Below, piece after piece: positions 562 to 30,362 of a DNA stretch of 64,000 bases; position 1 is the first letter of the stretch; each line of letters starts with the position of its first letter. Location of the stretch: NCBI GenBank assembly GCA_012799255.1, contig JAAZLQ010000321.1:62001-126000 (forward strand). The letters are read 5' to 3'. The notes under the pieces are model-generated. The model was not told the origin of the DNA and ran no database searches. It saw nothing but the letters and a program-made list of their open reading frames with translations. The DNA is from Bacillota bacterium (lineage in GTDB: Bacteria > Bacillota_G > Limnochordia > DTU010). Made by a program: the position numbers and the translations under genes.

Positions 562-840
562 TTAACGCTCTGTCCTTTGCAGGAACTTTCTGAGTTCGGG
601 GACTGCTTCGAAAAGTTGGCTGGCGAATTTTTCTCTGACAGCGTTGTCGATCTCAATCTCATTGAGAACTTGCGTTATTTTAGGCAGCACATGTGTTGCC
701 TCTACCAGGCTTTGTCTAAGGTTTTCTCTTAAGTCTTCCAGCAACGGAGAAACCACGGGGTAATTGGTGAACAGTAGCCCCACGATTTGCAGGAGTGATT
801 CCAGAACATTAGCGGATTCTTCCCGCATTTGATCAGTCAT
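562..840 (-). CDS. Small helical protein, family member A of a local three-gene paralog set
   Basis: A 92-residue acidic, leucine-rich, predicted all-helical protein without signal peptide or cysteines. The ATG at 840 is preferred to the upstream in-frame ATG at 900 because AGGAGG and AAGGA lie just before it. Its second half (LPKITQVLNE... QLFEAVPELRKFL) clearly matches the protein at 2222-2506 (LPKITQRLTE... QLFNFFPELESLL). Its first half (LESLLQIV... YPVVSPLLEDL) matches both that protein and the one at 2643-2867. The set surrounds a spore-coat-type ATP-grasp gene, so a role in the forespore or coat is plausible but unproven. I do not recognise a named family. Confidence 0.75.
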   Translation of the reverse strand: MTDQMREESANVLESLLQIVGLLFTNYPVVSPLLEDLRENLRQSLVEATHVLPKITQVLNEIEIDNAVREKFASQLFEAVPELRKFLQRTER

Positions 841-929
841 TTTCCTTGGTTCCCTCCTTTTTTGGAAATTCATGACTGACAATTCCCATTTGTAGTCCAT
901 AAGTCATATACATATACAAGGAGTGAGGG

Positions 930-954
930 GGGATGGAGGGCTACCCCCCATCCC
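930..954 (-). terminator. G/C-rich hairpin after the 26-residue peptide gene
   Basis: GGGATGG and CCATCCC can pair around an AGGG/CCCC core just past the stop of the minus-strand peptide gene at 963. No run of U follows on the minus strand, so this is only a possible terminator. Confidence 0.4.
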
Positions 955-962
955 AGTAAGGG

Positions 963-1043
963 CTATCCTAAGAGGATCACAGCCAACACGACGATGAGGA
1001 TTAACGCAACAAAGATGATGAAGGTTTCTTGTTCGTTATTCAT
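963..1043 (-). CDS. Tiny hydrophobic peptide (26 aa), single membrane segment
   Basis: The frame reads MNNEQETF followed by an unbroken hydrophobic helix of about 18 residues (I/V/L/A) and ends in G-stop. It starts with ATG, preceded by GGGAGGTG at good spacing. Short polar N-terminus plus one membrane span is the pattern of the small YjcZ/sporulation-membrane type peptides common in spore formers, but the conserved residues of YjcZ are not evident. It lies divergently from the ATP-grasp gene at 1166 and next to paralog A. It is below the usual gene-caller cut-off and easily missed. Confidence 0.6.
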   Translation of the reverse strand: MNNEQETFIIFVALILIVVLAVILLG

Positions 1044-1109
1044 GAAGTGCACCTCCCTCGGTTGAAGAATTAAGAAGTTGGCCTTCTTGCTCTTAAACTA
1101 TGAGATATT

Positions 1110-1140
1110 AACGGGACTGCTATAATTCTAGATTCCCGTT
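1110..1140 (+). promoter_or_regulatory. Extended -10 promoter inside an inverted repeat, upstream of the ATP-grasp gene
   Basis: TGCTATAAT at 1118-1126 is a textbook extended -10 element, 40 bases before the GTG start at 1166. It is flanked exactly by the perfect 7-base arms AACGGGA (1110-1116) and TCCCGTT (1134-1140), 24 bases centre to centre. A regulator binding both arms would occlude the promoter. No good -35 box is visible, which fits either an extended -10 promoter or activator dependence. Confidence 0.5.
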
Positions 1141-1165
1141 TTACTCTCATTGGGAGGTGCTTTTG

Positions 1166-2164
1166 GTGAGTCGAACGGTTGATCAGGCCTTATTAATGAA
1201 CAATGTGCAAAAGGTTCCCTATTACCGGGAACTCTGGCACGACAAGCGGATGGAGCTTTTGTTCTTTGACCCAGTGGGGATTGATTGGGAGGGCGAAATG
1301 ATAGTTGGCCTTCAACTTAAGGGTGGCAGGTGGAGAAAAGGTTACTTTGCTTTTCCACAAACTGTTTATAATCGTTGTTTTCCAGAGCCAACTCATGTAA
1401 TCAATGCTCTTAAGGAGGTTGTTGGCGCCAAGAATGTGTTCAACAGTTTAACTCATTTTGACAAATGGGAAGTATACCAGGCTCTTCGGGGGAGCGAAGT
1501 GGAACAGTATCTACCACCCACTTATCAGTATGATCAGCTCAGTTTGCCCAAGATTTTGGCGGAACATGGTTCCATCATTCTCAAACCCCGGTTAGGACAT
1601 GGCGGGTATGGAGTAACGAGAGTCACTCTAGTAATGCCTAATTTGGTTATTATTCAAGGGCAGGGGTTTCCGATTCCTGTGTGGGGAGAAGAGTCTTACC
1701 TCCCTTACCTGATTGCCATTGCTCCGCCGGAGAAGTTCATTGCGCAACAGTATATCGAGGGTGGTAAGGAAGGAAGTATCAAAGCTGATGTGCGTCTGTT
1801 GATGCAGAAAAACAAGTCTGGCAGCTGGGAGGTAGGTGGTCAATTGAGCAGGGTGACCACTGCTTCCACTTTGTTAACAAATCACTACCAAGCCATTGTA
1901 CCTCCTAGTGAAGTTGTTTCCGCTAAGCTCGTGTTTGACTTGCAGTCCATTAGTTACGTTGTGGCTACCACATTAGATGATAAACTGGCTACCTTAGGTG
2001 AACTGGGAGTGGATTTCCTCATTGATGAAACAGATTATCCTTGGATCTTAGAGGTCAATGGAAAACCAGATAAGAGCTTGTTTATGAAACTGGGTGACGA
2101 TGAGATGTTGAAGCGTGTGTATCTAAACCCTCTAGACTATCAGCAATACCTTTTGGGTAATTAA
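1166..2164 (+). CDS. YheC/YheD-type spore-coat-associated ATP-grasp protein
   Basis: A 332-residue protein of the YheC/YheD ATP-grasp family, associated in Bacillus with the endospore coat. The reaction is unknown; ATP-grasp enzymes join a carboxylate to an amine or thiol through an acyl phosphate. Visible ATP-grasp features are ILKPRLGHGGYGV (about residues 138-150, Lys and Gly-rich ATP loop), KADVRLLMQ (206-214) and the metal-binding DFLID...LEVNGKPD (283-302, Glu-x-Asn). GTG 1166 is chosen because GGGAGG ends eight bases before it; the GTG at 1157 overlaps that ribosome site. Small helical and membrane-peptide genes lie on both sides on the opposite strand. Confidence 0.85.
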   Translation: MSRTVDQALLMNNVQKVPYYRELWHDKRMELLFFDPVGIDWEGEMIVGLQLKGGRWRKGYFAFPQTVYNRCFPEPTHVINALKEVVGAKNVFNSLTHFDKWEVYQALRGSEVEQYLPPTYQYDQLSLPKILAEHGSIILKPRLGHGGYGVTRVTLVMPNLVIIQGQGFPIPVWGEESYLPYLIAIAPPEKFIAQQYIEGGKEGSIKADVRLLMQKNKSGSWEVGGQLSRVTTASTLLTNHYQAIVPPSEVVSAKLVFDLQSISYVVATTLDDKLATLGELGVDFLIDETDYPWILEVNGKPDKSLFMKLGDDEMLKRVYLNPLDYQQYLLGN

Positions 2165-2171
2165 GGCAAAT

Positions 2172-2197
2172 GCCCTAGGATCACTGGATCCTAGGGC
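2172..2197. terminator. Perfect 11-bp hairpin between convergent genes
   Basis: GCCCTAGGATC and GATCCTAGGGC pair perfectly around the loop ACTG, eight bases after the ATP-grasp stop codon and 25 bases past the stop of the opposing gene. There is no U-tract. The palindromic core makes a bidirectional transcription barrier likely. Confidence 0.65.
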
Positions 2198-2221
2198 GTC
2201 GGACGACTATCAAGGATGGGG

Positions 2222-2506
2222 TCATTTATTGTCTACCTTCTTTAGTAGGCTCTCCAACTCCGGAAAGAAGTTAAACAGCTGGTTCATAAGCTCTTCCTTC
2301 TTTTTCTGATCCATTTCGGTCAATCGTTGGGTTATCTTGGGTAATGCTTCCTGCAACTGCTCTGTGTTCGCCTGTGGTTCACCCGTTAACTGGCCAAGTA
2401 AGGAAGATATGCCTGGGTAGCTCAAGGCCAGTGTGGGTAGGAGTTTCAGAAGAGAATCGAGTGATGAGGATGATTCGGTGGATTTCCGTTTGTCTTTACC
2501 TTTCAA
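2222..2506 (-). CDS. Small helical protein, family member B of the paralog set
   Basis: A 94-residue protein with a basic, serine-rich N-terminus (MKGKDKRKSTESSSS) and a helical, leucine-rich body. It starts with TTG at 2506, with GGGGAGGTG seven bases upstream. It shares LPKITQ-x-L and QLF-x3-PEL-x2-L with the protein at 562-840. It shares LLP...YPGISSLLGQL with the protein at 2643-2867 (LLP...VPMLSSILGSL). It is the third gene of a tight minus-strand operon (2867 to 2222) with the membrane peptide at 2545-2637. Function unknown; the neighbourhood suggests sporulation. Confidence 0.75.
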   Translation of the reverse strand: MKGKDKRKSTESSSSLDSLLKLLPTLALSYPGISSLLGQLTGEPQANTEQLQEALPKITQRLTEMDQKKKEELMNQLFNFFPELESLLKKVDNK

Positions 2507-2544
2507 TAACTACACCTCCCCGGTTTAGCTTACGGCCTTACACG

Positions 2545-2637
2545 TTATAGGTTAAAGGCAATGATTAGAAGCACCGTTAGAAACAGAATGAAAATGGCCG
2601 TTACCGGGTCCATTCCGCAGCAGATAGGTCTGCCCAT
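2545..2637 (-). CDS. Tiny cysteine-containing membrane peptide (30 aa)
   Basis: The frame reads MGRPICCGMDPVTA followed by a hydrophobic helix (I/F/L/V/T/A, about 16 residues) ending in FNL-stop. It starts with ATG at 2637, with AAAGGAGTG upstream, only five bases after the stop of the gene at 2643, so it sits in the same operon. The vicinal cysteine pair just before a single membrane span is notable and may be a disulfide, metal or acylation site. The size and composition resemble short spore membrane or coat peptides. It is too short for standard gene callers. Confidence 0.6.
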   Translation of the reverse strand: MGRPICCGMDPVTAIFILFLTVLLIIAFNL

Positions 2638-2642
2638 GATCT

Positions 2643-2867
2643 TCACTCCTTTTTGGTTAGTAAGCCCTCTAACCCAGGTATCGCACCTGCCATATGCTGG
2701 GTGAGGGTTCTTAGAACATCAGTGTCCATTTGCTTGAGGCCACCGGTTTTGAGAGATCCCAGGATCGACGACAGCATCGGGACAGCTTCTATTACTCCTG
2801 GAAGTAGCTCCAAAACAGAGTCGGTTGACATGTTAAAATCGTTTTGTCTGAAAAAGGCATTCCCCAT
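2643..2867 (-). CDS. Small helical protein, family member C of the paralog set
   Basis: A 74-residue protein with no cysteines and no signal peptide, first gene of the minus-strand operon 2867-2222. ATG 2867 has AAGGGGG upstream. Residues 17-40 (VLELLPGVIEAVPMLSSILGSL) align with members A and B. The C-terminus (IPGLEGLLTKK) aligns with FPELESLLKKV of member B, while the LPKITQ block present in A and B is missing. It therefore looks like a shortened member of the same family. Its function is unknown. Confidence 0.7.
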   Translation of the reverse strand: MGNAFFRQNDFNMSTDSVLELLPGVIEAVPMLSSILGSLKTGGLKQMDTDVLRTLTQHMAGAIPGLEGLLTKKE

Positions 2868-2943
2868 TATACAGCCCCCTTTCTGTGATATGATATTCAG
2901 ACTAGGGAAAACGGAATTAGGCTTATGCTCCTATTTTGGACAT

Positions 2944-3002: not shown

Positions 3003-3623
3003 CTAATTAGCTGTCTCGTATAGTTTGCCTACCTTTTCCCAATCAATCACATTAAAAATGGCTTTCACATAGTCTGGGCGTACATTTTTATACTTCAGGT
3101 AATAAGCGTGCTCCCAAACATCAATTCCCAAAATGGGTGTCAATTGACCACCGTGGGTCATTAGGGGGTTATCTTGATTGGGAGTGGAAGTAACTAGTAA
3201 CTTGCCAGTTTTGTCTTTGGACAACCAGGCCCAGCCTGAGCCAAACACTGACGTGGCTGCTGTGGTTAGCTTTTGTACAAGCTCGTCAAAGGTTCCAAAG
3301 TCCTTTTCAATTTGAGAGCCCAAGTTTCCTTGTGGTGCTACCCCGCCCTGGGGACTAAGGATGTCAAAGAAGAGGTTGTGGTTGAAGAAACCACCGCCAT
3401 TATTGCGCACCGTTGTTTGCAGCGCTGCATCACTAATGGAATTGAGGTTAATCAGAATTTCTTCGATGGTTTTGCCTTGTAGGGCAGGGAGTTTTTCAAT
3501 GGCAGCATTTAAATTATTAGTATAGGCAGCATGATGTTTGCCATAGTGGATTTGCATGGTTAGCTCGTCAATATGGGGTTCCAAAGCATTAAAATCATAG
3601 TTTAGTTTTACCTGTTCAAACAT
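3003..3623 (-). CDS. sodA: Superoxide dismutase (Mn/Fe type)
   Basis: A 206-residue cytoplasmic superoxide dismutase converting superoxide to oxygen and hydrogen peroxide. The four metal ligands are present: His26 (MQIHYGKHHAAY), His82 (FFNHNLFF), Asp168 and His172 (DVWEHAYYLKY). Gln150 in TPNQDNPL is at the position typical of manganese-type enzymes, so Mn use is more likely than Fe, although cambialistic enzymes exist. Start ATG 3623 follows AAGGAGATG. It is transcribed alone, with its own promoter, a Fur-like operator and a strong terminator, as expected for an oxidative-stress gene in an anaerobe that meets oxygen. Confidence 0.95.
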   Translation of the reverse strand: MFEQVKLNYDFNALEPHIDELTMQIHYGKHHAAYTNNLNAAIEKLPALQGKTIEEILINLNSISDAALQTTVRNNGGGFFNHNLFFDILSPQGGVAPQGNLGSQIEKDFGTFDELVQKLTTAATSVFGSGWAWLSKDKTGKLLVTSTPNQDNPLMTHGGQLTPILGIDVWEHAYYLKYKNVRPDYVKAIFNVIDWEKVGKLYETAN

Positions 3624-4037: not shown

Positions 4038-4064
4038 AATAGCGAGCCTGAATGGCCCGCTATT
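4038..4064 (-). terminator. Terminator overlapping the stop codon of the tlp-like gene
   Basis: On the minus strand AATAGCGGGCC and GGCTCGCTATT pair with one mismatch, followed by TTCCTTTTC. The 5' arm includes the TAG stop codon of the gene at 4060. Confidence 0.65.
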
Positions 4065-4260
4065 CTTCCCGTAGTTCTTTGGTCTTTCCCCTAATATCTT
4101 CCCGTCTATTTCTATTCTTTTCTTCTAATTCCTTGCGACGTTCCAGAGACATCTTCTCGTGTTCCATGGCAAACTCTGCGTCTTGGATGCGGTCCTTGGT
4201 GTGCCTGATTTGCTGCTTGAGGTTCTTTTTGCTCTTTCCCTTTTCATCGAGTTTTGGCAT
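4060..4260 (-). CDS. tlp: Tlp-type small acid-soluble spore protein
   Basis: A 66-residue, very hydrophilic helical protein. The order of features matches the Tlp family of minor small acid-soluble spore proteins: an Asp/Lys-rich start, a helix with IRHTKDRIQDAE, then ERRKELEEKNRNRREDI near the C-terminus. This corresponds to the NTxENIxxAE and IKxKNxRRxExI blocks of Tlp. In Bacillus this gene is made in the forespore. Start ATG 4260 follows AGGAG. The composition is more basic than Bacillus Tlp, so the call is good but not certain. Confidence 0.7.
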   Translation of the reverse strand: MPKLDEKGKSKKNLKQQIRHTKDRIQDAEFAMEHEKMSLERRKELEEKNRNRREDIRGKTKELREE

Positions 4261-6042: not shown

Positions 6043-6153
6043 CACTTCGTTGACCTTAGTCTTCCAGGGGTTTGAGGAGGGAAATGGCTAGATGTGGAGA
6101 AAGATGAAATGCATGGGTAGTTGCGGAATTATTCTCCAGGGAGGGTATTGAAC

Positions 6154-7425
6154 ATGAAGTTAAACTATCGCAGGACATTCTTCATCGGTTTGGCCTTTAT
6201 GTCTATCTCGGCCTTTTGGCAAGTTTATGACAGCATTATTCCTTTGATTCTCAAGCATACCTTTGAAATTGGGGATACCTTGGCCGGGGTGGTTATGGCC
6301 CTGGATAATGTATTAGCCCTCTTTATGTTGCCCCTATTCGGTGCCCTGTCTGATCGGGTGGATACACAGATTGGAAAGCGGATGCCATTCATCCTTGGTG
6401 GAACGGCAGTAGCAGTCCTGTCCATGATCTTAGTTCCTGTGGCAGATAACATTGTGAGTTTACCGTTGTTTGTGATGGTTCTGTTGGTGGCGTTAGTGGC
6501 CATGAGTACCTATCGTTCGCCGGCAGTAGCACTCATGCCTGATGTGACTCCCAAGCCACTGCGCTCACAAGCAAATGGCATCATTAACCTTATGGGGGCA
6601 CTGGGAGCTGTGTTTTCTTTGGTCTTGATTTCGGCCTTGGTGCCGAAGAGTGGCAAGCCCGATTATCTTCCAGTTTTCGCCTTAGTTGCTGCTTTCATGG
6701 TGACTTCAGTAATCATCCTCTTCTTCACTATCAGGGAGAAGAAAATAGCTGCAGAAATGGAAGGATATGAAGAAACAGACGAAGAGGGTAAGGTTCAAGG
6801 GTCCGCGAAAATGGAACCAGAAGTGAGACGTAGTTTTTGGCTCATCTTAGCCTCGATTTTCTCCTGGTTCTTCGCCTACAATGCGGTAACCACAGCTTTT
6901 TCGAAATATGCCCAAGACTACCTAGGCATTGCCGGTGGCGGATTTGCTAATAGTTTAATGCTGGCGACAGTGGCGGCAGTCATCGCTTTTATTCCCGCGG
7001 GGATTATAGCTTCAAAAATCGGACGCAAAAGGACGATTATGGCGGGCATTAGCCTTTTGACTATCTGTTTTGCGATCGCGTCTCGCTTCACCAGCTTTTC
7101 ACCCTTACTTAATGTGCTCTTGGTGCTCATTGGTTTCGGATGGGCCGCGATCAATGTGAACTCCTATCCAATGGTGGTGGAAATGGCTAAAGGTTCGGAT
7201 GTGGGCAAGTTTACCGGCTATTACTATACTGCATCCATGTCCGCTCAAATTCTAACTCCTGTGTTATCTGGATTTTTTATGGAGTACGTTGGTTACCATA
7301 GTCTGTTTCCTTATGCTACTATTTTCATGATTGTCGCGTTTATCACAATGAGTCAAGTTAAACATGGCGATAGTAGAGGGGCCGCTCCCCAAAGTAAGTT
7401 GGAGTTCTTGGATGTGGAAGACTAA
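6154..7425 (+). CDS. MFS transporter, SLC45/sugar-carrier type
   Basis: A 423-residue integral membrane protein with about 12 hydrophobic segments. The loop after the second helix reads GALSDRVDTQIGKRMPF, the MFS motif A in the form found in SLC45-like and GPH-like sugar carriers. A charged central loop (about residues 195-225, EGYEETDEEGK) separates two six-helix halves. Substrate unknown; a disaccharide or glycoside symporter is the best guess. ATG 6154 follows GGGAGGG by nine bases; an in-frame start at 6121 lacks a ribosome site. It sits between a terminator and the chromate transporter pair and may be co-transcribed with it. Confidence 0.85.
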   Translation: MKLNYRRTFFIGLAFMSISAFWQVYDSIIPLILKHTFEIGDTLAGVVMALDNVLALFMLPLFGALSDRVDTQIGKRMPFILGGTAVAVLSMILVPVADNIVSLPLFVMVLLVALVAMSTYRSPAVALMPDVTPKPLRSQANGIINLMGALGAVFSLVLISALVPKSGKPDYLPVFALVAAFMVTSVIILFFTIREKKIAAEMEGYEETDEEGKVQGSAKMEPEVRRSFWLILASIFSWFFAYNAVTTAFSKYAQDYLGIAGGGFANSLMLATVAAVIAFIPAGIIASKIGRKRTIMAGISLLTICFAIASRFTSFSPLLNVLLVLIGFGWAAINVNSYPMVVEMAKGSDVGKFTGYYYTASMSAQILTPVLSGFFMEYVGYHSLFPYATIFMIVAFITMSQVKHGDSRGAAPQSKLEFLDVED

Positions 7426-8025: not shown

Positions 8026-8588
8026 CTTATCTAACTCTGATTTTTGAGTTTTTTAAGACGGGTCTGTTCGCTGTCGGTGGTGGTCTAGCGACGTTACCAT
8101 TTCTCAGAGACATGGCTCTGCGTTACCCTTGGTTTACTATGGAAGAACTGTTAAACATGATCGCTGTTTCAGAGAGTACTCCAGGACCGATTGGGATAAA
8201 TATGTCCACTTATTCAGGGGTTAAAGCAGGGAGTATTCTAGGAGGAATAATTGCTACACTGTCAATCATTGCTCCTTCGATTATTGTGATCGTGATCATC
8301 GCTTCAGTGAAGGAAAAATTCCAAAACTCGGTTGTGGTGCAGCGGGGCTTTTACTTACTACGGGCCGCCACAGCAGGTCTGATTGCGGGAGCGGTCTTTG
8401 AAGTGATAGTGGTTTCCCTCTTCAATTTGGGAGTGTACGCGGAGTCGGGGCAGCTATTATCGCTGGTGCGCTGGCCTTCGTTGATTCTCTTTGGAACTCT
8501 AGTTGTTTTAATTAAAAAGCTCCCCAAGGTGCATCCCGTCGTTTTTATTGTGGCTAGCGCGATTTTGGGCGTCATTTTTAAGCTGTAA
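8022..8588 (+). CDS. chrA: Chromate transporter family, second half-protein (pair 1)
   Basis: A 188-residue CHR-domain membrane protein with AVGGGLATLPFLRDMA near the N-terminus and SESTPGPIGINMSTYSG, the equivalents of the motifs in its upstream partner. Its ATG overlaps the partner's stop codon (ATGA), showing translational coupling and probably a heterodimer. It differs from the first half in the first motif (VGGGLATLP instead of FGGGYAMLP). The leucyl aminopeptidase gene starts 22 bases after its stop with its own strong ribosome site. Confidence 0.9.
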   Translation: MTYLTLIFEFFKTGLFAVGGGLATLPFLRDMALRYPWFTMEELLNMIAVSESTPGPIGINMSTYSGVKAGSILGGIIATLSIIAPSIIVIVIIASVKEKFQNSVVVQRGFYLLRAATAGLIAGAVFEVIVVSLFNLGVYAESGQLLSLVRWPSLILFGTLVVLIKKLPKVHPVVFIVASAILGVIFKL

Positions 8589-8610
8589 GTTGACTAAAGG
8601 AGGACTATTG

Positions 8611-10083
8611 ATGATGGATATTCGTGCTTTACCCTATAGTGCTGATTTGCAGGAAGATCTTTTAATGTTTGTGTGCGAAGATACTCTGGATGAATACAGT
8701 TGGCCTAGTGGCACAATTGCAGATCTGGTTAGAGCCCAAGGTTTCTCCGGAAAATCCGGTGAAGTTGCTTCAGTTGTGTATCTAGAAGAGGGAAGTGATC
8801 AACCTAGGAAAGTTCTAGTGGCTGGTTTAGGGAAGGACACAGAGCTTACCTTGGAAACGGTGCGTAAGGCCATAGGAGAATCCCTAAAAGAGGCAGAAAA
8901 GCTTAACATTGAACGTCTAGCTGTTGTACCTTGGACCTATCAAGCTCTTTCTGTAGCTGATGTAGCCCGGGTGGTAACAGAAACCAGCCTTTTGGCCAGC
9001 TATCGATTTGATCGCTATCTGTCCGAGAAAAAGGATCGCAAGCTAAACTCGATCCAAGTTTGCTATGAGCCGGAGCTGGAAGTTGAGGTAGTTCAAGCAA
9101 TTAAAGTAGGGCAGACTTTGGGCGAAACCACCAATTTGGCCAGGACTTTAGTGAATGAACCAGCTAATTTCATGACCCCAGAGCGGCTGGCGGAGCAAGC
9201 GGTCGAAGCTGGCGAAATGTATGGGTTTGCAGTTGACGTTCTTGAAATGGACGCAATTCGCGAGTTGGGCATGACCGCTTTTCTAGAAGTTGGCAAGGCA
9301 AGTGTGAACAAGCCCCGTCTGATCGTCATGCGTCATTTAGGGAATCCAGAACAAGCAGATTCAGTTATTGGGTTGGTGGGCAAGGGCTTAACCTTTGACA
9401 GTGGAGGTCTATCCCTTAAACAAGCACAGGGAATGGGGGATATGAAGTATGATATGGCAGGGGCAGCGGCGGTAATCGGTGCCATGGGTGCCATCGCCAG
9501 AGAAAACCTGCCTGTTAACGTGGTAGCGGTAGTTGCTGCTTGTGAAAACCTAATTTCTGGCGAAGGATATCGACCAGGTGATATACTAACCTCCATGTCT
9601 GGCAAGACCATTTTGATTGAGTCCACTGATGCGGAAGGTCGACTGACTTTAGCAGATGCAGTTCATTATGTGATTACGAAGGAAAACGCAAGTACTGTTG
9701 TGGATGTAGCCACCCTCACCGGAGCAGTAATAGTAGCCTTAGGTGATGTGGCTACAGGGGTAATCACCAATGATCAAAAACTGTACGAGCATTTGGAGCA
9801 GGCCTCAGAACAATCAGGTGAAAGAGTGTGGCAACTTCCCAGTTTCCCAGAGTATCGGGAGCAGAACAAGACCCCATTTGCGGATCTGAAAAATACTGGT
9901 GGGCGAGGTGCTGGTACAGTAACTGCAGGGCTCTTTGTCGAAGCTTTTGTGCAAGGAAAACCCTGGATGCATTTGGATATCGCAGGAACAGCCTTTGCCT
10001 CGAAAGACAAGGGTTATCTGACTCAAGGAGCCACAGGCGTAGGAGTCCGTTTGCTTTACCACTTTGTTGAAGCTTATCGTTAA
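8611..10083 (+). CDS. pepA: Leucyl aminopeptidase (M17 family)
   Basis: A 490-residue cytosolic aminopeptidase that removes N-terminal residues from peptides using two divalent metals. The metal-site residues are Lys258 and Asp263 (GKGLTFDSGG), Asp281 (MKYDMAG), and Asp340 and Glu342 in STDAEGRL, with catalytic Arg344. The signature normally reads NTDAEGRL; here Ser replaces Asn. ATG 8611 is chosen for AGGAGG seven bases upstream. The N-terminal macro-like domain occupies about residues 1-160. It ends in a bidirectional terminator shared with the opposing ROK gene. A role in peptide utilisation fits the other peptidases in the window. Confidence 0.95.
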   Translation: MMDIRALPYSADLQEDLLMFVCEDTLDEYSWPSGTIADLVRAQGFSGKSGEVASVVYLEEGSDQPRKVLVAGLGKDTELTLETVRKAIGESLKEAEKLNIERLAVVPWTYQALSVADVARVVTETSLLASYRFDRYLSEKKDRKLNSIQVCYEPELEVEVVQAIKVGQTLGETTNLARTLVNEPANFMTPERLAEQAVEAGEMYGFAVDVLEMDAIRELGMTAFLEVGKASVNKPRLIVMRHLGNPEQADSVIGLVGKGLTFDSGGLSLKQAQGMGDMKYDMAGAAAVIGAMGAIARENLPVNVVAVVAACENLISGEGYRPGDILTSMSGKTILIESTDAEGRLTLADAVHYVITKENASTVVDVATLTGAVIVALGDVATGVITNDQKLYEHLEQASEQSGERVWQLPSFPEYREQNKTPFADLKNTGGRGAGTVTAGLFVEAFVQGKPWMHLDIAGTAFASKDKGYLTQGATGVGVRLLYHFVEAYR

Positions 10084-26347: not shown

Positions 26348-27877
26348 ATGTTTTTCTGGAAACGCGTTAAGAAAGAAGAAAATAAGAAAGGCCTTTATAA
26401 CCTCAGTACCTCCCTGGAGATCAATGTTCATTGGTTTAAAACTGACATTTTGGGACACGACGATACGATAGTTTACCGAAACTTTAAGACCAAAGGCCCC
26501 AAAGAGCGTAACTGTGTTTTGATTTATGCTAGCAACATGGTTAAGCATGAGTTTTTGAGTGATTACATCGTAAAGCCCCTAATGAGTTGTACCCTGCCGA
26601 AGCATCTGACCGGTGAATCTCTCGCTACATTCCTAATGGAACGGGTTCTCCATTCTGATGGAGTAAACCTAGCGGATCAATATGTGAGGCTTGCTGAGAA
26701 AATCTTGAGCGGTTCGGGCGTTGTCCTGATAGATGGTTGCAATATGGGTATCGTTGTTCATGCTCCTGGTTATGAGACTAGACCTGTCGAGGAGCCACCT
26801 TCGGAAAACGTGGTTCGCGGACCGCGCCAAGGTTTTGCTGAAGACCTCGGCGTTAATATTAGTTTGGTACGACGGAGGATCATCAATCCGAAGTTCAAGA
26901 CAAAGTTTGTAACAGTGGGAGTTCAGACTCAAACCAAGGTAGCGATTTGCTACGTTGACGGCGTTGCCGCCCAATCTCTGGTGGATGAGGTACAGGATCG
27001 AATTGAAAAAATCGATATTGATGGTGTTTTAGACTCCGGCTATATTCAGGAGTTTATTCAAGATTCGCCATTCTCTCCCCTACCCACCATTGGGCAAACC
27101 GAACGTCCTGATATTGTTTCCGCACGGTTACTAGAGGGTAGGGTGGCAGTTTTAGTAGATGGCTCACCCTTTGCTCTCACCATGCCCTACTTACTGGTGG
27201 AGGCATTTCAAGCTAACGAGGACTACTACAATCACTGGATAGCTGCAACTTTTCACCGTATTATTCGTTATGTTAGTTTCTTTATTACCACGAGCACACC
27301 AGCTATTTATCTGGCTTTAGTAAGTTACCATCCACAGCTCATTCCTACTAACTTGGTGACTAGTATCGCCGCTGCCCGCCAAAATGTACCTTTCCCCGCC
27401 ATTGTAGAGGTGGTGGCCATGGGACTTGTCTTTGAAATACTCAGGGAAGGAGGTGTAAGACTACCCAGGCCCGTCGGTCAAGCGATCAGTATAGTTGGAG
27501 CGATTGTCCTTGGTGATGCAGCGGTAAGCGCTAGTTTAGTGAGCGCACCCATGATTATCGTGGTGGGAATTACCGGTGTTGCTGGTTTTGTGGTTTCTCT
27601 TCTTTATGATGTTGCTGTACTGATCCGGCTGTGGTTTGTATTGATGGCTTCAGTTATGGGGCTCTATGGTTACGTTTTGGCCCTAATGGCAGTGATCCTC
27701 TTACTAGCATCTATGGAGTCCTTTGGTGTTCCATATCTATCCACTATGACAACGTTTCAGCCACAAGATGTTAAAGATACCGTGATCAGAGTCCCTTGGT
27801 GGCAAATGGCATTAAGGCCCCGTTATTTGGCATCCCGTGATCGGGAACGTTTACAGAGTCAATCCAGGAGAAGGTAA
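26348..27877 (+). CDS. gerA: Spore germination protein GerA family (A subunit)
   Basis: A 509-residue A subunit of a nutrient germinant receptor in the spore inner membrane. The cytoplasmic N-terminal half (about 1-280) contains NVHWFKTDILGHDDTIVYRNF and VVRGPRQGFAEDLGVNISLVRRR. The C-terminal half has five to six membrane helices, including the conserved NVPFPAIVEVVAMGLVFEILREGG stretch in part. Length is typical. ATG 26348 follows GGAGGGGGT. First gene of the operon gerA, gerC, small ORF, gerB; such operons are expressed in the forespore by sigma-G, but no clear sigma-G promoter was identified. Confidence 0.95.
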   Translation: MFFWKRVKKEENKKGLYNLSTSLEINVHWFKTDILGHDDTIVYRNFKTKGPKERNCVLIYASNMVKHEFLSDYIVKPLMSCTLPKHLTGESLATFLMERVLHSDGVNLADQYVRLAEKILSGSGVVLIDGCNMGIVVHAPGYETRPVEEPPSENVVRGPRQGFAEDLGVNISLVRRRIINPKFKTKFVTVGVQTQTKVAICYVDGVAAQSLVDEVQDRIEKIDIDGVLDSGYIQEFIQDSPFSPLPTIGQTERPDIVSARLLEGRVAVLVDGSPFALTMPYLLVEAFQANEDYYNHWIAATFHRIIRYVSFFITTSTPAIYLALVSYHPQLIPTNLVTSIAAARQNVPFPAIVEVVAMGLVFEILREGGVRLPRPVGQAISIVGAIVLGDAAVSASLVSAPMIIVVGITGVAGFVVSLLYDVAVLIRLWFVLMASVMGLYGYVLALMAVILLLASMESFGVPYLSTMTTFQPQDVKDTVIRVPWWQMALRPRYLASRDRERLQSQSRRR

Positions 27878-29252: not shown

Positions 29253-30362
29253 ATGAAGGAGATTGTTCCTTGTACTGAAGGCATCAGCCTTGTTGTCCTG
29301 CTTGTAGTGGGAAATACTCTCGTTTTCGCCCTAGGAGGCTTGGCTGGAGCGGATATTTGGTTAGCGTTCATTGTGGCCACAGTATTGGCCTTGCCACTTG
29401 TAATTATTTATGCACGAATGCGATTTCTCATGGGGGATAGGAACTTAAGTGAGGGTCTCGCTTATCTTTTTGGAAAGTGGCCTTCCCGCTTTGTAGCGTT
29501 AGCATACAGTTTCTATGCCTGGCGTCTTAGTTGTCTGGTGGTTGGCGATGTCACTACTTTTATCCAAGCGGTTGCCCTACCAACTACGCCTCAGATTGTA
29601 CTGGCCCTGTGTTTCATCGCGCTAAGTATATGGGCAGTAAAAGAAGGTGTAGAAGTAATAGCCCGTTGGAGCATGGTGATGGGCAAGCTGTTTTTCTCAG
29701 TGCTTTTCTTTGCGTTCTTATTGCTCCTGACCGAGGTGGAGCTTGGAGAGTTTCTACCTGTTTTGTACAATGGGTTCAAACCGGTGATGTTAGGGGCCCT
29801 GCAAATTCTGGACTTTCCGTTCTTGGAAACAGTCCTCCTGTTTTGGACTTTTGAGCGTTTTTCGAAAAAAGACTCCCCCTACAGGGTGTTTATACCCGGT
29901 TTTCTGATTGCAGCTTTTATTATGCTCTTATTGACGAGTACCAGTATGTCTGTGCTTGGCGCGCATCGCTATTCAGTATATTATTTCCCTATCTACACTG
30001 CTGTTGCCCGAGTGGATGCAGGCGTCTTCTTAACCCGCTTAGAAGCGATCGTGGGTACCACCTTCGCTGTGGGTAGCTTCTTGAAGATCGCAGTCTGCAT
30101 TTTGGTCGCGAGTAGAGCGCTTGTCCATGGACTTGGTTTCAGCGACTATCGCTTTGTGGTTACTCCCTTGGCGTTAAGCACAATTCCAGGTGCGGAGTGG
30201 TTTGCCCCCAATCTAATGCAGATTGAACTTAGTGCAACAAAAGCGGTATCTCCTTCCGCTCTAACGTTCCAAGCAATTATACCCATAATTCTCTGGATTG
30301 TAGCTGAATTCAGAACGCGCAAACAGGGGAAAACCTCCTCTTCAGGCAGGAAGGCTTCTTAG
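29253..30362 (+). CDS. gerB: Spore germination protein GerB family (permease-like subunit)
   Basis: A 369-residue protein with ten predicted membrane helices, related to the APC amino-acid permeases. It is the germinant-binding B subunit of the receptor. Typical family features are the N-terminal EGISLVVLLVVGNTL helix, LPLVIIYARMRFLMGDRNLSE and FPLFLE-like FPFLETVLLFWTFE. ATG 29253 follows GAGGAGGTAATCC. Last gene of the operon; the ligand cannot be told from sequence. Confidence 0.94.
   Translation: MKEIVPCTEGISLVVLLVVGNTLVFALGGLAGADIWLAFIVATVLALPLVIIYARMRFLMGDRNLSEGLAYLFGKWPSRFVALAYSFYAWRLSCLVVGDVTTFIQAVALPTTPQIVLALCFIALSIWAVKEGVEVIARWSMVMGKLFFSVLFFAFLLLLTEVELGEFLPVLYNGFKPVMLGALQILDFPFLETVLLFWTFERFSKKDSPYRVFIPGFLIAAFIMLLLTSTSMSVLGAHRYSVYYFPIYTAVARVDAGVFLTRLEAIVGTTFAVGSFLKIAVCILVASRALVHGLGFSDYRFVVTPLALSTIPGAEWFAPNLMQIELSATKAVSPSALTFQAIIPIILWIVAEFRTRKQGKTSSSGRKAS

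Follow-up and report, generated by a model that had tools for sequence, protein, structure and literature searches.

In a 64,000-nucleotide stretch of the genome of a Bacillota bacterium assigned to Limnochordia (contig JAAZLQ010000321.1, positions 62,001 to 126,000; hereafter the window), a YheC/YheD-type ATP-grasp gene on the plus strand lies between two groups of small genes on the minus strand. The first-pass annotation had placed small proteins, here A, B and C, on both sides of this gene, with interleaved membrane peptides of 26 and 30 residues. The positions of these open reading frames (ORFs) were verified: A, B and C flank a gene matching PF14398, and the two peptides, m26 and m30, were found where described, their helix being judged from the sequence (Table 1). 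From their spacing and strand, the small genes appear to form two operons, m26-A (1043 to 562) and C-m30-B (2867 to 2222). As for the ATP-grasp, the listed ORF begins with GTG 1157, a codon located inside the ribosome-binding site GGGAGGTG (1152-1159); because of this overlap, the start was placed at the in-frame GTG 1166, which gives 332 amino acids (aa), the length of the database protein P0012.

The block is a conserved gene module bound to one clade of ATP-grasp enzymes. In one class, m26 was found in 22 of the 72 genomes, with a total of 25 copies, all of which adjoin this ATP-grasp and at least one protein of the helical "LLP" family of A, B and C; gene copy numbers here rest on the genomes of relatives, not on the whole genome of the window itself. 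When 299 genomes of the phylum were searched with the m26 profile, seven matches at E ≤0.001 were obtained: six strong ones, all at such loci, and a weak one (G136) attributed to chance, as it falls inside a 553-aa frame without ATP-grasp. The LLP profile matched three of the 299 genomes, all five matches being at such loci, but its reach is limited: in this search it missed three genomes, G012, G014 and G076, that have deep LLP proteins. The deeper relatives (L013, L014, L017 and L109-L111) kept the ATP-grasp, m26, m30 and one or two LLP proteins, while A and C were not found in them. An LLP gene follows m26 in most loci, and the m26-LLP pair is doubled in loci of the L014 type.

In a tree of 87 ATP-grasps, all 19 enzymes with these neighbours fell into one group, with a Shimodaira-Hasegawa-like approximate likelihood ratio test (SH-aLRT) support of 98, and of 95 in a 123-row tree with longer-type and other sequences added. 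At 12 sister-group loci (L018, L020, L024, L028, L032, L035, L038, L041, L055, L082, L083 and L091), no m26, m30 or LLP profile score was better than E 0.02. Close ATP-grasps from five genomes without m26 (G331, G339, G332, G342 and G345) were also viewed with their 1.5-kb flanks: no match to m26, m30 or LLP was obtained there at E ≤1, and Cys proteins of a ~85-aa family, described below, lie beside the enzymes of G331, G342 and G345. The small proteins are not absent from YheC/YheD neighbourhoods, one enzyme clade having them in every sampled case.

Both tiny peptides are well preserved. Among 12 close relatives taken from GTDB genomes (L001-L012), m26 was found in all loci with 76-96% identity to the window copy, and m30 in 11 with 77-93% identity, the L003 contig stopping before m30; each is preceded by a ribosome-binding site in these relatives. 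Codon comparisons gave proportions of synonymous (pS) and nonsynonymous (pN) differences of 0.55 and 0.06 for m26 (13 sequences) and of 0.54 and 0.10 for m30 (12 sequences), with pN biased downwards, since the sequences were selected with patterns drawn from the observed peptides. This codon pattern indicates that m26 and m30 are genuine genes under strong purifying selection.

Table 1. Features of the block, of the rest of the window and of related loci (window positions unless a locus or contig is given).
Feature	Position	Strand	Basis or remark
Protein A, 92-aa helical LLP family	562..840	-	ATG start; second gene of the putative m26-A operon
m26, 26-aa single-helix membrane peptide	963..1043	-	Ribosome-binding site, conservation, pS/pN, genome searches; helix judged from sequence
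-10-like box CATAGTTTA	1094..1102	-	First base 59 nt ahead of the m26 start codon; alignment
YheC/D-type ATP-grasp, short subfamily, 332 aa	1166..2164	+	GTG 1166 start; PF14398, invariant residues, fold
Protein B, 94-aa helical LLP family	2222..2506	-	TTG start
m30, 30-aa Met-Gly-Arg-Pro-x-Cys-Cys membrane peptide	2545..2637	-	Ribosome-binding site, conservation, pS/pN; helix judged from sequence
Protein C, 74-aa shortened LLP paralog	2643..2867	-	ATG start; Met-Gly-Asn start, Glu end
Upstream region of the putative C-m30-B operon, conserved	2889..2937	-	Alignment of 12 loci
AAAATAGGA, within this region	2929-2937	-	
CCTAATTCC, within this region	2913-2921	-	
-10-like box AATATCATA, within this region	2889-2897	-	First base 30 nt ahead of the start codon
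Tlp-like small acid-soluble spore protein gene	4060-4260	divergent	Just above Pfam cut-off, below NCBIfam cut-off
GerA gene	26348-27877		Profile match
Spore_permease gene	29253-30362		Profile match
Split sigma-K gene	G001:C65:145874-150535		Likewise in G002-G011 and G013
~85-aa family members	L035:9570-9824, L038:9080-9343, L184:858-1377, L018:3995-4327		

Concerning A, B and C themselves, they had been regarded as a paralog family with common sequence blocks. The quoted motifs are present in the alignment, and profile-profile comparisons linked A to B (98.2%, E 4e-14), B to C (96.5%, E 9e-10) and A to C (94.2%, E 1e-7); A and B also matched by BLASTP (E 4e-11, the database being the ORFs of 81 records). 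The family is nameless in Pfam and NCBIfam, where none of the three window proteins reached a cut-off. Protein searches gave 11 relatives of B (query included), the single named one being a hypothetical protein, and four relatives without names for a deep LLP protein. The predicted model of B is all-helical with modest confidence (predicted local distance difference test, pLDDT, of 67); a Foldseek search with it returned nothing significant (two matches, E 6 and 8), and a PDB sequence search with the A/B profile gave 35 matches at E ≤1 (best 0.02), prominently helical and coiled-coil proteins, none of them convincing. A homolog of A stands at the same place in 11 of the 12 close relatives and was not found in L002. 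The C-terminal ends of A and B vary among relatives, for which reason the C-termini of the helical proteins were dropped as candidate modified sites; for C, 10 of the 12 loci have a terminal Glu, a residue that may be a weaker lead.

The enzyme matches PF14398 (ATPgrasp_YheCD) with E 1.7e-42 and 145.9 bits vs. a cut-off of 26.8, and its residues D211, R213, D286, E299 and N301, which we take to be the ATP-grasp catalytic residues, are invariant across 28 aligned sequences. Its fold is closest to LysX/ArgX/RimK, at 15-18% identity, and the fold matches include PsnB, a ligase of ribosomally synthesised and post-translationally modified peptides (RiPPs), and a RiPP-associated ATP-grasp. A match to PF14397 (sugar-transfer-associated ATP-grasp; E 4e-5) is below cut-off. 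The enzyme belongs to a short (~335 aa) YheC/D subfamily, split by a branch with an SH-aLRT of 97 (quick method) from 32 longer PF14398 rows, in a tree whose sequences do not include YheC and YheD of Bacillus subtilis themselves. The longer proteins are often in tandem; the 30 that were fetched have open frames of 376-520 aa. As a whole, PF14398 matches over cut-off were found in 111 of the 398 sampled genomes of the phylum, and 12 of the 14 genomes carrying the block have at least two.

Reading the flanks of related enzymes revealed unrelated proteins with like N-termini: m30 starts with MGRPICC, the ~85-aa protein with an MGxRNxCCRCP-like sequence, and a collagen-like protein with MG(K/R)xxCPPGPPGP, or with a MGRIPGPPGPPGP-like sequence without Cys. 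With a first pattern, a tagged ORF was found at most 1.5 kb away in 57 of the 87 short-subfamily loci, i.e. 0.235 per kb vs. 0.003 per kb (3 ORFs) farther off. When both patterns were applied within a margin of ~2.2 kb, 77 of the 87 loci have a Met-Gly-…Cys-Cys or Met-Gly-…PPGPP neighbour, and one was found elsewhere; these counts are uncorrected for shared descent. The 77 loci comprise 48 collagen-like proteins, 16 m30 and 13 small Cys proteins (two of which, at L021 and L096, come from another family), the partner gene being opposite in direction to the enzyme gene in 76 cases. Among the longer-type PF14398 loci, a tagged partner was found in none of 30 (1.5-kb flanks only, many in tandem arrays). 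The four labelled groups fit the tree with three changes, the fewest possible, 11 unlabelled rows being left uncounted. The weight of the tag pattern, as read from these sequences, lies in the fact that at least three protein families unrelated to one another show it.

The collagen-like genes divergent from a short ATP-grasp gene (L019 and 47 further loci) are mostly from Paenibacillus, with Alkaliphilus, Alicyclobacillus and Brevibacillus also represented. The ~85-aa family (MGxRxxCCxCPEAW...) adjoins the sister-group ATP-grasp; four of its members were scanned, and none matched Pfam. The flanks of L015, L107 and L178 carry, next to other short ATP-grasps, proteins of ~150-185 aa starting with MG(L/F)... 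or VGLC..., of which the single one scanned (L178:860-1411) had no Pfam match.

The regions upstream of the small genes share a box, [CA]ATANNNTA. It stands 57-63 nt ahead of the m26 start codon in 18 of 20 regions, against a Markov expectation of 1.1, and 30-31 nt ahead of the C start codon in all 12 regions, against 0.7 expected. In B. subtilis, sigma-K promoters have CATANNNTA as their -10 box, and these sigma-K/E-type -10 boxes, at fixed positions before both putative small-gene operons, point to late mother-cell expression. A GerE-like inverted AAATAGG/CCTAATT element was considered upstream of C and set aside, being present at just 6 of the 12 loci. Of the 14 relatives, two (G012 and G014) have an intact sigma-K gene over cut-off, and in the other 12 the gene occurs as two halves, 1.6-4.2 kb apart, an arrangement resembling a skin element; such a split gene would function only after excision. 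Stand-alone ORFs of LuxR type and of the size of GerE, which are candidates for GerE, were found in 8 of 8 cases.

PMC7911427 describes YheD of B. subtilis as a coat shell encircling the spore, with strong self-interaction in two-hybrid assays and a function stated to be undetermined. In PMC3533761, YheD is among the proteins listed as SpoIVA interactors, unlike in PMC7911427, which reports that direct YheD-SpoIVA binding was not found. A role of the block in the spore envelope is supported only indirectly, by the promoter-like boxes, the spore genes of the window, the collagen-like partners in relatives and this published coat location.

As for the surroundings, an open frame without Pfam match enters from the window start (23-454), and L001, L007, L009, L010 and L011 have a ~530-590-aa open frame upstream of the block, as does L004 at a greater distance. 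On the other side, a superoxide dismutase-like gene (sodA, 3003-3623, named from sequence) adjoins the block in 11 of the 12 close relatives, the twelfth contig ending before its position. It was kept out of the block because a terminator-like hairpin, seen in the sequence, parts it from C; the SodA, DUF896 and Tlp neighbours were likewise excluded from the module, none of them being matched in L013, L014 or L017.

We tentatively favour the explanation that the block is a late-sporulation mother-cell module building the spore envelope, with a ligase joining onto a Met-Gly/Cys-tagged partner. The module, its paralogy, conservation and clade-specific linkage, the promoter-like boxes and the conserved active-site residues are directly supported; the placement in a membrane and in the coat, the timing, the substrate and the reaction are inferred, as follows. 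The block would be expressed late in the mother cell and make part of the spore envelope. m26 and m30 would be membrane-seated, probably in the outer membrane of the forespore, and the proline-broken helical A, B and C would pack against it as scaffold partners at its periphery. The ATP-grasp would spend ATP on attaching an amino acid, or a second coat protein through its carboxyl group, to an envelope protein with the Met-Gly/Cys tag: m30 in this clade (perhaps C too), and the ~85-aa Cys protein or the collagen-like protein in relatives. That the ATP-grasp modifies one small protein is plausible by analogy with its RimK/LysX-like fold and in view of the Met-Gly/Cys-starting neighbour in several partner types. 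The first-pass annotation had suggested modification of one of the small proteins, or a role of all of them as coat or cortex components: the spore-component role gains indirect support, and the tagged m30 appears to be a more likely substrate than A, B or C.

Several points weigh against this explanation. RimK and LysX act on C-termini, while the common tag here is N-terminal, and the expression, spore location and chemistry of the module are predictions. The boxes are shared by descent, so that their counts are not independent; moreover, the box is not enriched before the collagen-like genes (11 of 48 vs. 8.4 expected), nor clearly so ahead of the genes for the ~85-aa Cys proteins (2 of 11 vs. 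1.0 expected). The tag patterns were chosen after examples had been seen, and a Gly in second position is frequent (98 of 991 long ORFs). Ten of the 87 loci have no tagged neighbour: two stop at contig edges (L003 and L072), two carry a single-Cys m30 variant, MGKRRFCW (L017 and L109), two have another MG/VG protein (L015 and L107), and L016, L034, L083 and L095 are plain misses. The contrast between short- and longer-type loci is weaker than it appears, owing to the short control flanks and the tandem arrays. Finally, B has no confident fold, one of its relatives passes the cut-off of a phage chaperone family (see below), and the YheD two-hybrid screen gave self-interaction only, according to PMC7911427.

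The main rival, which we regard as a serious contender, is that the small proteins are purely structural, the ATP-grasp acting elsewhere, on a wall or glycan precursor, or being itself a self-polymerising coat protein as proposed for YheD. The self-interaction and coat shell of YheD (PMC7911427), the PF14397 match below cut-off and the partner proteins, very unlike between enzyme groups, speak for it; the invariance of the expected catalytic residues speaks against it, as does the partner with a similar N-terminus that recurs beside three separate short-type groups, with none found at the longer-type loci. If m26 and m30 were SpoVM- or CmpA-like regulatory or curvature-sensing peptides of coat or cortex assembly, the ATP-grasp being merely co-regulated, then their size, membrane helix and sporulation-type boxes would fit, as would the LLP gene after m26 and the doubled pair; the strict clade-specific linkage to the ATP-grasp makes this unlikely.

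A RiPP-like pathway, in which a small peptide would be a precursor crosslinked or extended by the ATP-grasp and released as a signal or antimicrobial, appears still more improbable. Even though an ATP-grasp next to tiny genes, with PsnB and a RiPP-associated enzyme among its fold matches, recalls such pathways, and the window has an MFS-like ORF (major facilitator superfamily; 6121-7425, by eye) and an M17 aminopeptidase (8548-10083) 4-6 kb off, the conserved block itself is without exporter or protease, its boxes are of sporulation type, and the tiny peptides are nearly invariant, without obvious cleavable leader, unlike most precursors. Homology of A, B or C to unrelated known families did not emerge, though P0007, a relative of B, passes the cut-off of PF21822, a phage tail assembly chaperone (23.5 bits vs. 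22). It is the sole one to do so among the nine B-type relatives re-scanned, the other eight being below cut-off or unmatched; window B scored 16.0 bits, and 5 of 31 A/B members matched at E ≤0.01. We take the P0007 match as helix similarity, kinship with phage chaperones being still conceivable; that the LLP proteins are domesticated relatives of these, recruited to the spore, is very improbable, as the same proteins match unrelated helical families equally weakly and no phage gene was noticed near the block, where none was sought by profile. Least credible is a chance presence here of m26 and m30 as type I toxins or small respiratory-subunit peptides. The single membrane helix and a weak CydS-like score of m26 (E 0.3) would suit it, but none of the nine ORFs scanned in the first 4.3 kb holds an oxidase domain (the remaining window being scanned in part), PADLOC gave nothing but one match on B (E 0.006), and the linkage to the ATP-grasp at 25 of 25 places already disfavours it.

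Among known systems, the longer, often tandem YheC/YheD proteins share the Pfam domain with the window enzyme, which lies outside their tree group and, like the coat-associated YheD (PMC7911427), occurs in a spore former. The RimK/LysX/ArgX amino-acid ligases have the same fold, but the partner tag here is N-terminal, and an activity like that of RimK and LysX, the addition of amino acids to a ribosomal or carrier protein, is predicted. The pheganomycin ligase PGM1, which joins at an N-terminal amine, is likened by its reaction, and belongs to a natural-product pathway, unlike the block. With graspetide and other RiPP clusters, the likeness is the PsnB fold match; no leader was seen in the tiny peptides, RiPP profiles not having been run. 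YjcZ-type proteins are tiny single-helix proteins of spore formers, as m26 and m30 would be, but neither gave a Pfam or NCBIfam match to this transmembrane sporulation family at E ≤1. SpoVM is alike in size only, and a Pfam scan of the block, for which the presence of a SpoVM model was not checked, gave no SpoVM match. As regards BclA-type collagen-like spore filaments, the window enzyme has no adjoining collagen-like gene, in contrast to the 48 related loci, whose collagen-like proteins would be spore-located; the common trait is the Met-Gly-starting N-terminus, often with Cys. In the open-access literature, a search that leaves most subscription journals outside, no title or abstract paired YheC/YheD-type ATP-grasps with the partners found here.

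A broader and more doubtful proposal is that the short YheC/D ATP-grasps are dedicated spore-surface ligases recognising an N-terminal Met-Gly-(Lys/Arg)-...-Cys-like tag, in an ATP-driven, sortase-like protein ligation: once Met had been removed, an amino acid or another coat protein would be attached to the freed amine of Gly or to the thiols of Cys. If true, one enzyme type would anchor the collagen-like filaments of Paenibacillus, the Cys-rich small proteins of the sister group and a membrane microprotein here. YheC/D ATP-grasps are widespread, and for YheD of B. subtilis the function is stated as undetermined (PMC7911427); the common N-terminal signature beside one subfamily provides a named candidate substrate per lineage, culturable Paenibacillus included. 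In addition, the likely sporulation genes now include two microproteins of extreme conservation and a helical family that has no name.

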